Source of the DNA: Candidatus Schekmanbacteria bacterium
Lineage (GTDB): Bacteria; CSSED10-310; JACPHN01
Assembly (NCBI GenBank): GCA_016188575.1
Contig: JACPHN010000254.1
Coordinates: forward strand, 1-57,978
Reading direction: 5' to 3'
DNA: 57,978 nt
Made by a program: the position numbers and the translations under genes. The first letter of the stretch is position 1. Each line of letters opens with the position of its first letter. The notes below the pieces were generated by a model, which did not search any database, had not been told where the DNA came from, and saw nothing but the letters and a program-made list of their open reading frames with translations. This document shows positions 33,299-57,978 of this stretch, one piece after another.

Positions 33299-34975
33299 TC
33301 AGTTTGCGTCCAGTTGCGACCTGATCCAGGCGATCGACTCATCGTCCGCCAGTTGGCTGCTGGTCAAATAGAAGAAGGCAGTAGTTTCGTGCTCGGCCCC
33401 CGGCACCACCACGTAATCAATCGCATTGCCTGCTGCTTGCAGCGCTTCGACGGTTTCCCGTGTGTAGGGCTCTGGAGTCGTGTTGTCCTCGTCACCTTGA
33501 TAGACCCGGAAAGGCGCCGTCTGTTCGTATGGGGCGACTGCATTCAAAGTGAACGCGTCGTGAACCATAGTGTACTCGCTCCACGTCTCCGTCTGCATTT
33601 CGTGGAGAAACGTTTCGTCAAAAATTCGATTCGGGATATCCGGAATACGATCACCTATGGATTCTCCGAGTGCAAACATACAGTAGTTATTCATCGTGTC
33701 GTCGATTGTGGAGGAAAGACTGGATGCCCAGATCGGTTTGCTCCAACCATAGCGATCCGCCCAAGCGTAGAATAGCATCGCATGATATTTGAGCGCATCT
33801 GTGATGTAGCTCGTTGTGGGCAGCCAATGGCTCTCCCACACCGTGGCAGGTCCGGCGGCGGCAAAGGCGCGGATATCCAGGTCGGGAGCGTATTCCGCGT
33901 GCAGGGCTGCGGCGGCGAAAGTGGCGTGCCCACCCTGGCTCAGACCAGCAGCCGCAAATCGATTCGTGATCGGTAGACCCAGGAGCGCTGCCAGCGTCCG
34001 CGTCGCGCGCATGCCGTCCAGAGAGCTCGTGGCTTCGACCCGCTGTGTAAGGTAATGATGTAGGCCGGGCGTTCCGAGGCCGGCGTAGTCGCTGGTTACG
34101 CCGATCATGCCGCGCCCGCCAAAGTAGGATGACAAGCCGATGCCGACCGACAGCCCGGCAGTCGCGCAAACGTCGCCGATGCCGACAGTGCCGTGATTAT
34201 TGGCGGCAATGTGCCATCCTCCTGCCGGAGGTGTCAGCCCGGTATCGAATGGCACGGTAACCGTGGCACCGGAAACGGCTCCATCCGTGGCGTAGTAGAT
34301 CGTGTAGATCGAGTACCCGTTGTCGAAATTGATATCCGGGGTGGCGTACGGATCGATGACGGCCTTGGTGTACGAGCCACCGTACGAGCACTGCCGCAGA
34401 CAGCCGTTCGTGGTGCACTCCGGCGCGACATCGATCGTTCCTACCGGCACCATTACCGTGTCCGATTGCAATACGCCGTCGCTGCTGGTGACGAGCGTCA
34501 CCCAGTAGTCGTAGGTGACCCCGGCGGTGACCTGCGTATCTGTATAGAGCTTCGTGCCCTGGGCATCGATAACGGCGAGCGGATCCAGACGCGACTCCGA
34601 TTGACTGGCAAAGCCCACGCCAGCGGCCAGGAGAGCGAGCACCGGAGGCGCGAGGCGCGGTAGGCGGCCCTGGCGTCCCCTGAGCCATGTGCCCATGAGG
34701 GCGATCCCGAGCGCTGCGAGGAGCAGGGCGGTCAGCGTGACGCCATTGGCCGCGGGCACCGTTAGCTGATGAGCTTGCCGGTAGACCTCGTAACGGACAA
34801 AGCCGGCGTCGGTCGTGGAAGTCCACCACAATTCGACGGACGGCGTTGCATCCGGTGTCACGCTCTGCAGTACCAGCGTCGAGCTCGCCGCCACCTCGGC
34901 AACCGTTACTAACGACAGCGCTGCGAGCAGGCCAGCTCGGAGAGCCCACCGAGGCAAGTCCCTTGACAGTTTCAT
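33299..34975 (-). CDS. Secreted lipase-like alpha/beta hydrolase with FN3-like domain split by a two-helix hairpin
   Basis: 558 residues from the ATG at 34975; the longer frame to 35101 is basic and unsupported. A signal peptide (ALRAGLLAALSLVTVAEVAA) leads to an FN3-like domain. Its early strands VELWWTSTTDAGFVRYEVYRQ are separated from its late strands LAVIDAQGTKLYTD and VTYDYWVTLVT. Between them, residues 73-125 hold VPAANG, a hydrophobic helix, WLRGRQGRLPR and a second hydrophobic helix. The catalytic part (about 190-558) resembles secretory lipases. The nucleophile elbow is GLSQGGHA (Ser346), with acid candidate GDED and His in VPGAEHET. The family usually hydrolyses esters of lipids. 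The hairpin would place the hydrolase on one side of a membrane or make it a processing substrate. Confidence 0.82.
   Translation of the reverse strand: MKLSRDLPRWALRAGLLAALSLVTVAEVAASSTLVLQSVTPDATPSVELWWTSTTDAGFVRYEVYRQAHQLTVPAANGVTLTALLLAALGIALMGTWLRGRQGRLPRLAPPVLALLAAGVGFASQSESRLDPLAVIDAQGTKLYTDTQVTAGVTYDYWVTLVTSSDGVLQSDTVMVPVGTIDVAPECTTNGCLRQCSYGGSYTKAVIDPYATPDINFDNGYSIYTIYYATDGAVSGATVTVPFDTGLTPPAGGWHIAANNHGTVGIGDVCATAGLSVGIGLSSYFGGRGMIGVTSDYAGLGTPGLHHYLTQRVEATSSLDGMRATRTLAALLGLPITNRFAAAGLSQGGHATFAAAALHAEYAPDLDIRAFAAAGPATVWESHWLPTTSYITDALKYHAMLFYAWADRYGWSKPIWASSLSSTIDDTMNNYCMFALGESIGDRIPDIPNRIFDETFLHEMQTETWSEYTMVHDAFTLNAVAPYEQTAPFRVYQGDEDNTTPEPYTRETVEALQAAGNAIDYVVVPGAEHETTAFFYLTSSQLADDESIAWIRSQLDAN
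34601..34759 (-). other. Internal sorting-signal-like hairpin module, copy in the lipase-like protein
   Basis: Encodes residues 73-125 of the lipase-like protein: VPAANG, a helix TALLLAALGIALMGTW, the basic turn LRGRQGRLPRL, and a helix PPVLALLAAGVGFA. It interrupts the FN3-like fold between strands C and D/E by sequence pattern. Confidence 0.65.
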
Positions 34976-53550: not shown

Positions 53551-53688
53551 CCGGAATTCCTTGTCGAGGGCTTCCGGCGCGCGGCTCCAGTCCACGTCCG
53601 CGTGGACTGCGGGGAAGAAAAAGGCGAGAAACGGTTCCAGGTCCCGATCGAGGAGGTCTTTCCAGACGCTGTCTTGCTGGTGCAGCAT
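53551..53688 (-). pseudogene. Rpn-family (YhgA-like) nuclease N-terminal fragment
   Basis: Forty-six residues (SVWKDLLDRDLEPFLAFFFP, then HADVDWSRAPEALDKEFR) match the start of Rpn/YhgA-like recombination-promoting nucleases, which normally run on for 250 residues or more. The frame then enters the inverted-repeat element. The gene is a remnant, flanked by the AAACTCG elements. Confidence 0.7.
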
Positions 53689-53753
53689 GGGCGGCGAGCA
53701 TACCGCCGACCGCTGCTGGCGCCGATGGCCGATGGGCCATCCGGGAGCGCGTG

Positions 53754-53830
53754 ATCAGTTTCGAGTTTGTAGTTTTGCCGCTCGGGAGCGCGAAACTCGA
53801 AACTCGAAACTCGAAACTACTAACTCGAAA
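53754..53830. repeat. AAACTCG hairpin element, copy B
   Basis: Begins GATCAGTTTCGAGTTTGTAG like copy A and carries the inverted core TGTAGTTTTGCCGCTCGG, followed by four CGAAACT units. It is about 0.5 kb from copy A. Confidence 0.8.
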
Positions 53831-54649
53831 GCGGTCCGCTCGCGGAGTCTCTCGCGCGGGTGTGGCGAGCGCGCGGCGCCAGCCCGGGAACCGTAGTGGG
53901 TACTCCAGGAGGGAATGGCCGGCGACTCCGATGCCCGGCCGCAGCCTCCGAATTCGCGTGCGGCATCGCCAAGTTGCGCCGCTTGGGTGCAAGGTTTGCT
54001 TGCGGGGCGGCTGCAACTGCTTGCGCCTTGACACCGGCGCAGCAATGGAGGATAATCAGATCCAGTTCTCCCGAGCGCGGGCCGAGATCCGCGGCCGCCG
54101 CGGGGAGGGGTCGCCCAAGACCATGGGGAAGGCGTTCATGAGACACGGCCTCGAGCCGCGACCTGGGAAGACTACGGCCGCATGCGCCGCCGTGGCACGA
54201 TTCTTGCGTGCCTGCGTGCCTGCCTTCCTCGTGGCGCCTCGGCAGCAGGCAATCTTCCCCCGGACGGCACGCTCCCTCTCGCGGCAAGCGCGGCCAAGGG
54301 GACAGAGCGCGCGCTGGTCGCGACGGAACCCGCCTTGCCAGGGCCGGAGCGCGCCCCCACAGCCGCGGAGCCCGGCCTCCCCGCAGCCGAGCGCGGGCAC
54401 CGGGAGACGGAGCGCGGCCCCCTTTCGCCGGAGCCCGCGCGGCGCGCCGCGGAGCCCGCCCAGCGCGCCGCGGAGCCCGCCACCCTGCTCGCGACCCGCG
54501 CGCCCCATCCGACGGATGCCGCCTTGCCTGCCATCTTCGCCGCCCCCGCCCGCGCGGAGCGCCCGGCCGCTCCCAAGGACCCCGCGCACGTGGCCGTCCC
54601 GGCCGCCGGCGAGCCCATCAGCAGCCCGATCCGCAACCGGAGGAGCACC

Positions 54650-55340: not shown

Positions 55341-55418
55341 GCTTGAGCACCCAGCGAACGAATGTTACAGCTCACGTCCCCCCCCGCTTGCCGGGGGAAC
55401 AGAGGGGGGAGATCAGCG

Positions 55419-55460
55419 ATGGCGCAAGAAGCGCTCGGCCTGCTCACGCGGCCGCCGTGA
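55419..55460 (+). CDS. Possible leader ORF coupled to the metalloprotease gene
   Basis: Thirteen codons (MAQEALGLLTRPP) preceded by a GGGGGGAG ribosome-binding site and ending TGATG, whose ATG starts the next gene. The only good Shine-Dalgarno in the area serves this short frame. It could be a translational leader, or the true N-terminus joined by a lost base. Confidence 0.35.
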   Translation: MAQEALGLLTRPP

Positions 55461-57978
55461 TGCTGGCGTTTGCGCTCACCACTCTCGTGGTCTTGCCGCC
55501 AGGCGCAGCCCGAGCCGTGGATGCGGTTACGCTGCAGACGCCGGTTGCCGCAAAGCTCCTGGTCGAGGGTGCGAGCACCGCCTACGCAACGCAGGGCAGT
55601 GAGCTGATCTACCATGCCATCGGGTCTTACGGCCCCGTGGTTCAGCTCACCTGGACCGAGAGCGCCGCCGCCGATTTCCTCGCCTACTCCCTCATTCGCG
55701 CGGACGGGCCCGGCTTTCCGGTGCCTGACTCCGGCGGGTTCGCGGTCGTGGTCCTGCTGTTTCTGGCGGCCGTGGCCTTGCGGCGTCGACGACCTTCACC
55801 CGCCCTGGTGCTCGGACTGGCGGTTCTTTTCGCCGCCGGATCATCGCTCTTGCTCGCGAAAGCAGAGACTGTGGAAGTCGGCCGCGTGACGGACCGCGGC
55901 ACGACTTCCTTCATCGATCGCGCGGCGGCGTCCGGGCAGACGTCGTACTACAAGGTCGTGCTTGTCACCCGCTCCGGAACGGCTGACAGCAATGTGGCAA
56001 CGGTGCCCGTGCCGGAGGTGGAGCCGGCAGGCGATACCTTGAGCTGGTCGCTGCCCACGGCCCCATCCGGCGCCGCGATCGATGAGCAGGGAGTGGTGCG
56101 CTGGACACCTCGCAGAGGTGATGGCGCGTCGGCGAATGTCGTCGTGCGCCTCACGTCGGTGGCGAACGGCACCGTGGATCATGCGGTTGCCGTGCAGGTG
56201 GCAGCGACGACCATCGAAAGCGAGCAGCCCATAGCAGCCGCGCAAGGAGGCACGGTGGAGGTCACGTCCGGTGGGGCGGCAGGCGTCGAGGTAACGGTAC
56301 CGGCCCAGGGCATGCCTGTCGACGCGACCGTGGCGATCGGCACGGCCAGCGGGCTTCCGCCCCTGCGGGCCGGCGTGACGACGATTACGGCCGCCTTCCG
56401 CTTCACGGCCGAAAACTCGGCGTTCCTGGATGGCACGACTGCCGGCATCCCGTACGACGAGGGGAGCTTGCCGGCGGGATCGACGGAAGCCGACATCTTC
56501 GTCGTCGCCTACTACCACGGTGCGTGGTTCGACGGCGACGTGGCGTCGCTGGACAGCGTGGCCGACGTCGCGACGGTTGCGCTCTTCGGCGCGGAGGTGG
56601 TGGTCGGGCTCGCCGTGGAGACAGGAGCGACGCGAGCTGGAACGGAGCCGCTCACCCGCGCCGTGTTTGCCGGTCGTCCCTTCAACATCGACTACGAGGC
56701 CGGCGGGGCGGACGCGCCAGTGGCAAACTGTAACACCCAGTGCGATCCGGGTGCGGGCGCGCCGGACGGGTATGTGCGGGGATATTCCGACAGGACCTAT
56801 GCGCCGGGCGTGCCCGACTACGTGCAGGATGTCGCGTTCGCGTTGCAGGACGCCCTGACGGCCTACAGGAACCTCGGCTACGCGGATCCCACGGCGGGCG
56901 GAGCGACGCGGATTCGAGTGAAGCTCAGGCGTTACGCGTTCGGCGGGCTGATGGATCGGTCCAACCAGGTTAACCCCATGTTCCCGAAAACCATCAACCT
57001 GCACAGCACGCAGAGCAGGATGTGTGGCGGGGGACGCTGCTATGACGGCGGCTACCCCACGGCCGCGCTTGTCAAGTCGGTCGTCGCTCACGAGCTGTTC
57101 CACCTGGTGCAGTATTCCTATAATCGACTGGCGCTCGCAACGTGGAGCAACGATTGGGCCTACGAAGGCACCGCGCAATGGGCAACGGGAATGGCGTTCC
57201 CCGAGGCGCTGGACATCTGGGGGAGGCGGATCCGGGACTACTACGAGCTGGGGTTTCCGAGGAAAAGCTGGCTTTCGTCTACAGCTCTGGACGGTGGCAA
57301 CGGCTACGACGCGTTTCCCTTCTGGTTGCACGTGCAGAGCCGATTCGGCAGCGCCGCGCTGGTCGACTTGTGGGAGCAGATGGCCGACAGTGGTTGGCTG
57401 GAGCAGACAGTGGCGGGGGAGCTCGCGGCCGATCGGATGCTGGCCCTTCCGCAGTACGGCTCGAGCCTGGAAGAGGAGGTTGTGGGCTTCGCGGACCGCT
57501 GGTTCTACCGGCATGACGACGACGAAATCTTCGAGGCCGACCACTGGGTGAGATTGGGTGTGCTGCCAGGACCCTTTGTGGTGAGCAGTCTCCCGCGAAC
57601 GGACACGTTCAACGTTCAGGTACGGACGTGCATTCCCCGCAAGATCCTTGCTGGTTTGTCCAGCGGCAAGCTGGTGGTGACTTTCAGCAATCCCGACGCC
57701 CCCATACCTTTCCAGGTGGCATGGCGGAGCTCGCTGCTGGCCCGGCGATCCGACTCCGGCGCGATCGTGGACGTGGGCACGTTCACGGGAGACACGGGGA
57801 CGCCGCTGGAGCTGAGGGGCTTTGGCACGACCTACAGCGAGGCGTTTCTGGATGTGTGCGCGGTGCAGTCGATGGGTGAGGTGAGGAAGGACAACATCGA
57901 GGTGTCCATGCAGGTCGTGGGAGCGGCGACGCCGACGCGAACCCCTACGGTGCCGGCGACAGCAACCGGGACAGCCAC
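55460..57978 (+). CDS. Secreted zinc metalloprotease with FN3-like domain split by a VPDSG hairpin; partial
   Basis: At least 839 residues, running off the window. A signal peptide (MLAFALTTLVVLPPGAARA) is followed by an FN3-like domain. Its strands VVQLTWTESAAADFLAYSLIR and TSFIDRA/TSYYKVVLVTRSG are separated by residues 88-133: VPDSG, a helix AVVVLLFLAAVAL, RRRR, PSP and a second helix. Beta-rich domains follow. The peptidase has HELFH (His544, Glu545, His548) with Glu569 in YEGTAQW as the likely third ligand, a gluzincin pattern. A Thr/Pro linker (TPTRTPTVPATA) starts at the edge, like that in the SBBP protein. The whole frame lacks a stop, so ORF tools miss it. Start 55460 could instead lie upstream. 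Confidence 0.8.
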   Translation, partial: MLAFALTTLVVLPPGAARAVDAVTLQTPVAAKLLVEGASTAYATQGSELIYHAIGSYGPVVQLTWTESAAADFLAYSLIRADGPGFPVPDSGGFAVVVLLFLAAVALRRRRPSPALVLGLAVLFAAGSSLLLAKAETVEVGRVTDRGTTSFIDRAAASGQTSYYKVVLVTRSGTADSNVATVPVPEVEPAGDTLSWSLPTAPSGAAIDEQGVVRWTPRRGDGASANVVVRLTSVANGTVDHAVAVQVAATTIESEQPIAAAQGGTVEVTSGGAAGVEVTVPAQGMPVDATVAIGTASGLPPLRAGVTTITAAFRFTAENSAFLDGTTAGIPYDEGSLPAGSTEADIFVVAYYHGAWFDGDVASLDSVADVATVALFGAEVVVGLAVETGATRAGTEPLTRAVFAGRPFNIDYEAGGADAPVANCNTQCDPGAGAPDGYVRGYSDRTYAPGVPDYVQDVAFALQDALTAYRNLGYADPTAGGATRIRVKLRRYAFGGLMDRSNQVNPMFPKTINLHSTQSRMCGGGRCYDGGYPTAALVKSVVAHELFHLVQYSYNRLALATWSNDWAYEGTAQWATGMAFPEALDIWGRRIRDYYELGFPRKSWLSSTALDGGNGYDAFPFWLHVQSRFGSAALVDLWEQMADSGWLEQTVAGELAADRMLALPQYGSSLEEEVVGFADRWFYRHDDDEIFEADHWVRLGVLPGPFVVSSLPRTDTFNVQVRTCIPRKILAGLSSGKLVVTFSNPDAPIPFQVAWRSSLLARRSDSGAIVDVGTFTGDTGTPLELRGFGTTYSEAFLDVCAVQSMGEVRKDNIEVSMQVVGAATPTRTPTVPATATGTA
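55721..55858 (+). other. Internal VPDSG-type hairpin module in the metalloprotease
   Basis: Encodes residues 88-133 of the metalloprotease: VPDSGG, hydrophobic helix, RRRRPSP, hydrophobic helix ending SSLLLA. VPDSG followed by a helix and Arg cluster is the layout of VPDSG-CTERM exosortase signals, but here it is internal. Confidence 0.7.

Follow-up and report, generated by a model that had tools for sequence, protein, structure and literature searches.

Exosortase signals have been described chiefly as tags at the C terminus. The window analyzed here, a stretch of 57,978 nucleotides from Candidatus Schekmanbacteria bacterium (phylum CSSED10-310), encodes a secreted metalloprotease in which a segment resembling such a tag lies in the interior of the protein, and it raises the question of what this segment does there.

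The host protein and the seat of the hairpin

A reading made from the letters alone (the sequence-only reading) had described a VPDSG–helix–RRRR segment at 55721-55858 (+), corresponding to residues 88 to 133 of a metalloprotease with a HELFH site downstream. The segment is present exactly as described, with the translation VPDSGGFAVVVLLFLAAVALRRRRPSPALVLGLAVLFAAGSSLLLA (VPDSG–helix–RRRR–helix), HELFH follows at 57089-57103, and the residue numbers are correct when counted from the ATG at 55460. A likely start, at least as likely as this ATG, is the TTG at 55343, which is preceded by GAGGTG and from which the motif begins at residue 127 instead of residue 88. The contig reaches position 60286, past the end of the window, and the frame continues there: a TPT-rich linker and a brief N run lead to an FGE-sulfatase domain (PF03781, E = 6e-56), whose end lies near contig position 59100. 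Because the frame runs on to this domain, the motif falls within the first ∼10% of a protein of ∼1,250 residues, and the hairpin segment lies near the N terminus, not at the center of the protease as had been proposed. The features of the protein in the window are as follows.

55343..57978, plus strand: reading frame of the secreted metalloprotease, with a Shine-Dalgarno-like GAGGTG before TTG 55343; extends beyond the window end
55343..55516, plus strand: signal peptide region, a hydrophobic stretch ending GAARA/VDA (sequence, hydropathy)
55517..55717, plus strand: N-terminal part of a fibronectin type III (FN3) domain, as far as strand C, VVQLTW..DFLAYSLIRADG (alignment, profiles, AlphaFold)
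55721..55738, plus strand: VPDSGG motif, head of the hairpin and putative exosortase site (sequence, alignment, VP count)
55739..55780, plus strand: transmembrane (TM) helix 1 (hydropathy; helix in the AlphaFold model)
55781..55792, plus strand: RRRR, predicted cytoplasmic turn (sequence)
55805..55858, plus strand: TM helix 2, predicted to return to the periplasmic side (hydropathy, AlphaFold model)
55865..56020, plus strand: remainder of this FN3 domain, with strands C′, E, F, and G (alignment, profiles, AlphaFold)
57089..57103, plus strand: HELFH zinc site of an MXAN_6640-like metalloprotease domain (sequence, NF045524 match)

The protease region shares an HExxH metalloprotease domain, here downstream of the hairpin, with the MXAN_6640 family of putative metalloproteases (NF045524; E = 1.5e-18), although its 67.5 bits are below the family cutoff of 140. 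A search of the genome contigs found no close relatives of the whole protease.

The sequence evidence identifies the segment as a predicted TM hairpin that interrupts an FN3 domain between strands C and C′. One domain is present in two halves, VVQLTWTESAAADFLAYSLIRADG before the hairpin and ETVEVGRVTDRGTTSFIDRAAASGQTSYYKVVLVTRSGTADSNVATV after it, with hairpin boundaries placed by eye on the cassette alignment. When 17 cassettes (15 from this genome and 2 from a second genome of the phylum, G002) were compared to Pfam fn3, 3/17 matched with the hairpin in place and 7/17 after its removal, and the best E value improved from 0.0086 to 4.6e-5. A profile with the hairpin excised matched FN3 domains in the PDB, including those of receptor phosphatase delta, titin, an Fn3-like protein, and fibronectin (best E = 2.7e-9). 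The FN3 assignment holds at the level of the family, because the window's own domain stays below the Pfam fn3 threshold even after excision. AlphaFold models of both hairpin proteins in the window (pLDDT 59 and 69, low to moderate confidence, from two-row alignments) place the two helices between FN3 strands at the C–C′ position. Foldseek matches for these models include FN3 domains, monobodies, and fibronectin modules, none with E < 0.001.

Recurrence of the FN3 hairpin

The combination of FN3 domain and hairpin, hereafter the cassette, was found in 16 places in the genome by a single-sequence search; a profile search gave 38 matches, 21 of them spanning essentially the whole cassette. The window itself holds a second such protein.

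33299..34975, minus strand: second FN3–hairpin protein, in which an alpha/beta-hydrolase-like region (judged by eye) follows the cassette (search, sequence)
34601..34759, minus strand: its hairpin, VPAANG–TM–RGRQGR–TM (alignment, AlphaFold)

The cassette heads or sits within very different proteins, namely, metalloprotease, alpha/beta-hydrolase-like, propeller, glycosidase-like, and FGE-domain proteins (names judged by eye, FGE excepted). Since the FN3 domain resumes after the hairpin and the insert recurs in 20 other places, the hairpin is not a one-off fusion. Identity to the window copy is only 20 to 36% for most of the others, and the TM sequences lack conservation. VP is found at the head of 18 of the 21 FN3 hairpins, compared to 12.5% of the 22-residue windows in the same proteins, a contrast that overstates the significance because the copies are paralogs and not independent. 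The residues that usually follow are A/S/V/L, S/A, and G, and the literal VPDSG is one form that the looser pattern VP-x-[SA]-[GA] can take. VP is absent from 3/21 FN3 hairpins and from both hairpins of G002. By simple hydropathy, a C-terminal TM tail is missing from all 20 other hairpin proteins whose 3′ ends are complete (two have non-FN3 host folds), and the window protein likewise ends, in GFRCARIP, with no TM tail.

Within CSSED10-310, only this genome (G000) and G002 were found to contain the full cassette. No full-length FN3 cassette was present in 16 genomes outside the phylum that encode exosortase H (XrtH), or among the candidates scored from 118 genomes of the phylum to which a Ca. 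Binatia XrtH genome belongs; these two sets yielded only two FN3-tail matches.

What appears to be a second host fold, a CNA-B/carboxypeptidase-regulatory-like domain, also carries similar hairpins (loci L015/L029, L098, L099, and L101 on contigs C195, C151, C102, and C210). At L097 (C138:12764-12991, minus strand), a hairpin lies between cohesin-like and dockerin-like segments, and at L093 (C221:6931-7218), a hairpin and the C-terminal FN3 half stand directly behind a cohesin-like domain.

The FGE domains show a feature of their own. Several hairpin-bearing FGE paralogs differ strongly in their last ∼35 residues (RGGxW..A..xRSAxR....P......GFRCAR). Beyond the window end, the stretch L019 3406-5287 (contig C111 58405-60286) covers the FGE end of the window protein and, on its 3′ side, a four-helix-bundle protein matching PF05635 (E = 1e-33) and a reverse transcriptase fragment (PF00078, E = 0.005) cut off by the contig end; the same order of FGE and reverse transcriptase occurs on contig C70. 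Together, the variability and the reverse transcriptase match the anatomy of a diversity-generating retroelement target; a search for the template repeat of such an element found none. Short AAACTCGAAACTC-type repeats, reading NSKLETRNSKL, lie between genes at L019 4913-4989 and in the window at 53600-54100.

The genome's exosortase and known signal types

The segment shares a motif, a TM helix, and an arginine cluster with VPDSG-CTERM (TIGR03778) and IPTL-CTERM (TIGR04174). Both of these types, however, sit at the extreme C terminus, neither profile matches the window segment, and the W-G of IPTL-CTERM is missing from its motif. The sequence-only reading had assigned the segment to the VPDSG-CTERM type, to be abandoned if the profile scored no better than for ordinary TM hairpins. 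When this check was run, no TIGR03778 match (≥22 bits) was obtained in the protein, the isolated piece, or the genome, and the segment is not C-terminal; the assignment was therefore dropped. Generic models of a TM helix with an RRRR tail do score on the segment (GC_trans_RRR, 17.8 versus 15.85). We also considered, and rejected as very improbable, a true VPDSG-CTERM signal served by XrtC and displaced when a C-terminally sorted protein was fused to the protease. The literal VPDSG letters followed by TM-RRRR speak for such an origin, but TIGR03778 is unmatched and XrtC is absent from the genome, whose assembly is 94% complete. A better case for an exosortase-type signal is made by the split FN3 domain, its 20 further copies, and an exosortase of the XrtH class.

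Only one exosortase in the genome scores over the PF09721 cutoff (C106:10913-11350). It reaches 86.5 bits against the XrtH model (TIGR04177), marginally above the cutoff of 86, and 19.5 against the XrtC model (TIGR04151), for which the cutoff is 300. Its Cys, Arg, and His residues (C115, R156, and H175) are invariant in an alignment of phylum members. An exosortase is present in 8/8 CSSED10-310 genomes examined; among the five with typed exosortases, G000 (86.5) and G002 (89.1 and 91.1) are above the XrtH cutoff and the three others score 65 to 80. The co-occurrence of cassette and XrtH within the phylum is suggestive only, given the few genomes and the narrow score margins. No FN3-hairpin protein was seen beside the XrtH gene in the 16 kb read. 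The genome also holds candidate C-terminal tails with VP motifs (VPVSGG, VPATSP, VPAASA, and VPSGSA), found with models that favor VP-like motifs.

XrtH is the enzyme that gives the known midcut family its name, and this family, NCBIfam midcut-by-XrtH (NF033207), is the nearest known kind. In the members compared, Burkholderiales examples from genomes with XrtH, a signal peptide is followed by a short beta segment, a motif (VPTLTQWG, VPTLSEWG, IPTLSEWG, or PVPVDHP), TM1, a basic turn, TM2, and a beta domain. The window protein has the same layout, with a VP motif in the VP/IP position and a beta-rich domain behind TM2; it thus has the central motif–TM–basic–TM hairpin after a signal peptide that characterizes membership, and its genome likewise encodes an exosortase H, if marginally by score. 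The family differs in its IPTLxxWG-type motif (in several members), its small stand-alone beta domain, and its lineage. The NF033207 model, with a cutoff of 45 bits, does not match the window protein at E values up to 10 and reaches its cutoff nowhere in the genome, where L015 scores 11 bits and the best match, a C-terminal tail, scores 26.5 bits. Since the model misses the window protein, we regard the protein, on the evidence of its sequence, as a new, midcut-like variant and not as a member.

In HVO_0405 of Haloferax volcanii, a central tripartite site is cut in vivo by archaeosortase A (PMC7157517 and its reference 12). Like the window protein, HVO_0405 carries an exosortase-superfamily signal in its interior, where cutting has been demonstrated experimentally; it differs in having an archaeal PGF motif and in being a single domain-fusion protein, with no FN3 insertion repeated through the proteome. 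PEP-CTERM matches at atypical places were deemed probably nonfunctional by Haft and colleagues (PMC1569441).

Probable internal anchoring and its alternatives

The features established from sequence, namely, a predicted hairpin with its FN3 seat in 21 places, proteins with no other detectable anchors, and an enzyme of the XrtH class in which Cys, Arg, and His are invariant, are best explained, at a rough probability of 0.55, by an internal exosortase-type anchor in the FN3 C–C′ loop that XrtH would recognize and cut before TM1. After Sec export, the FN3 halves would fold together outside the inner membrane while the hairpin inserts into it and holds the protein there. The VP motif would then be recognized by exosortase H and the chain cut immediately ahead of TM1, so that the beta-sandwich alone would keep the N-terminal FN3 strands together with the piece that bears the enzyme. 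Archaeosortase A passes its substrates to lipid, and the N-terminal strands may alternatively be transferred in this style. Recognition of VP by XrtH, the cut, and the fate of both pieces are what we infer. With ∼20 proteins bearing the same insert and one matching exosortase H, the hairpin proteins are therefore probably anchored at an internal site rather than at an end and are perhaps cut there. We favor this explanation because of the VP frequency (18/21), the 21 cassettes, the profile and structural matches of the split domain to FN3, the lack of C-terminal anchors, the presence of XrtH and its co-occurrence with the cassette in G000 and G002, the VP motifs of some C-terminal tails, the midcut layout, and the HVO_0405 precedent; it is weakened by the marginal XrtH score, the lack of a cassette gene beside XrtH, the hairpins without VP, the bias of the tail models toward VP-like motifs, the XrtH genomes without the FN3 cassette, the modest AlphaFold confidence, and the failure of the window's own domain to reach Pfam fn3. 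As for the sequence-only reading, its internal exosortase-type signal upstream of the protease, whose cutting would detach an N-terminal piece, is retained in this explanation, but its VPDSG-CTERM type is not.

A serious rival, possible but short of probable, is that no cut takes place and the hairpin serves simply as a membrane anchor, its two helices forming a foot that fastens the N-terminal FN3 domain, and hence the enzyme, to the inner membrane. VP would then merely mark the helix entry, and XrtH would serve other, C-terminal, substrates, for which the candidate tails offer a place. The topology suffices for anchoring without any cut, and both the unconserved TM sequences and the missing cassette in other XrtH genomes fit such a foot. 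The prevalence of VP at the hairpin heads argues against it, as does the XrtH-linked NF033207 family, which shows the same layout with an IPTL motif.

Excision at both ends, with exosortase H cutting ahead of TM1 and signal peptidase I behind TM2, would leave the two halves as a noncovalent split FN3 domain; we consider this unlikely. The arginines, TM2, and an AxA-like end do resemble a signal peptide, as in RRRR-PSPALVLGLAVLFAAGSSLLLAKA/ET of the window protein, LVLADA/GD of L003, and DANA/Y and EAQA/G of NF033207 members. However, AxA after TM2 is not enriched (18/27 versus 16.4 expected from composition shuffles; P = 0.30), and the NF033207 members give 5/6 versus 2.9 expected (P = 0.08); the motif is cheap in this position because TM2 is alanine rich. 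Equally doubtful is the broader proposal that the phylum anchors much of its exoproteome by a removable hairpin in FN3, in which XrtH and a second protease would excise the hairpin, the split beta-sandwich would display enzymes on the surface, and some of the displayed enzymes would carry variable FGE-type C-terminal domains.

Under the favored explanation, ∼20 proteins of one genome would share an internal exosortase-type signal that forms part of a defined fold, and internal cutting and the fate of the halves therefore become testable. In such genomes, much of the sorted proteome would escape a search limited to C-terminal tags.
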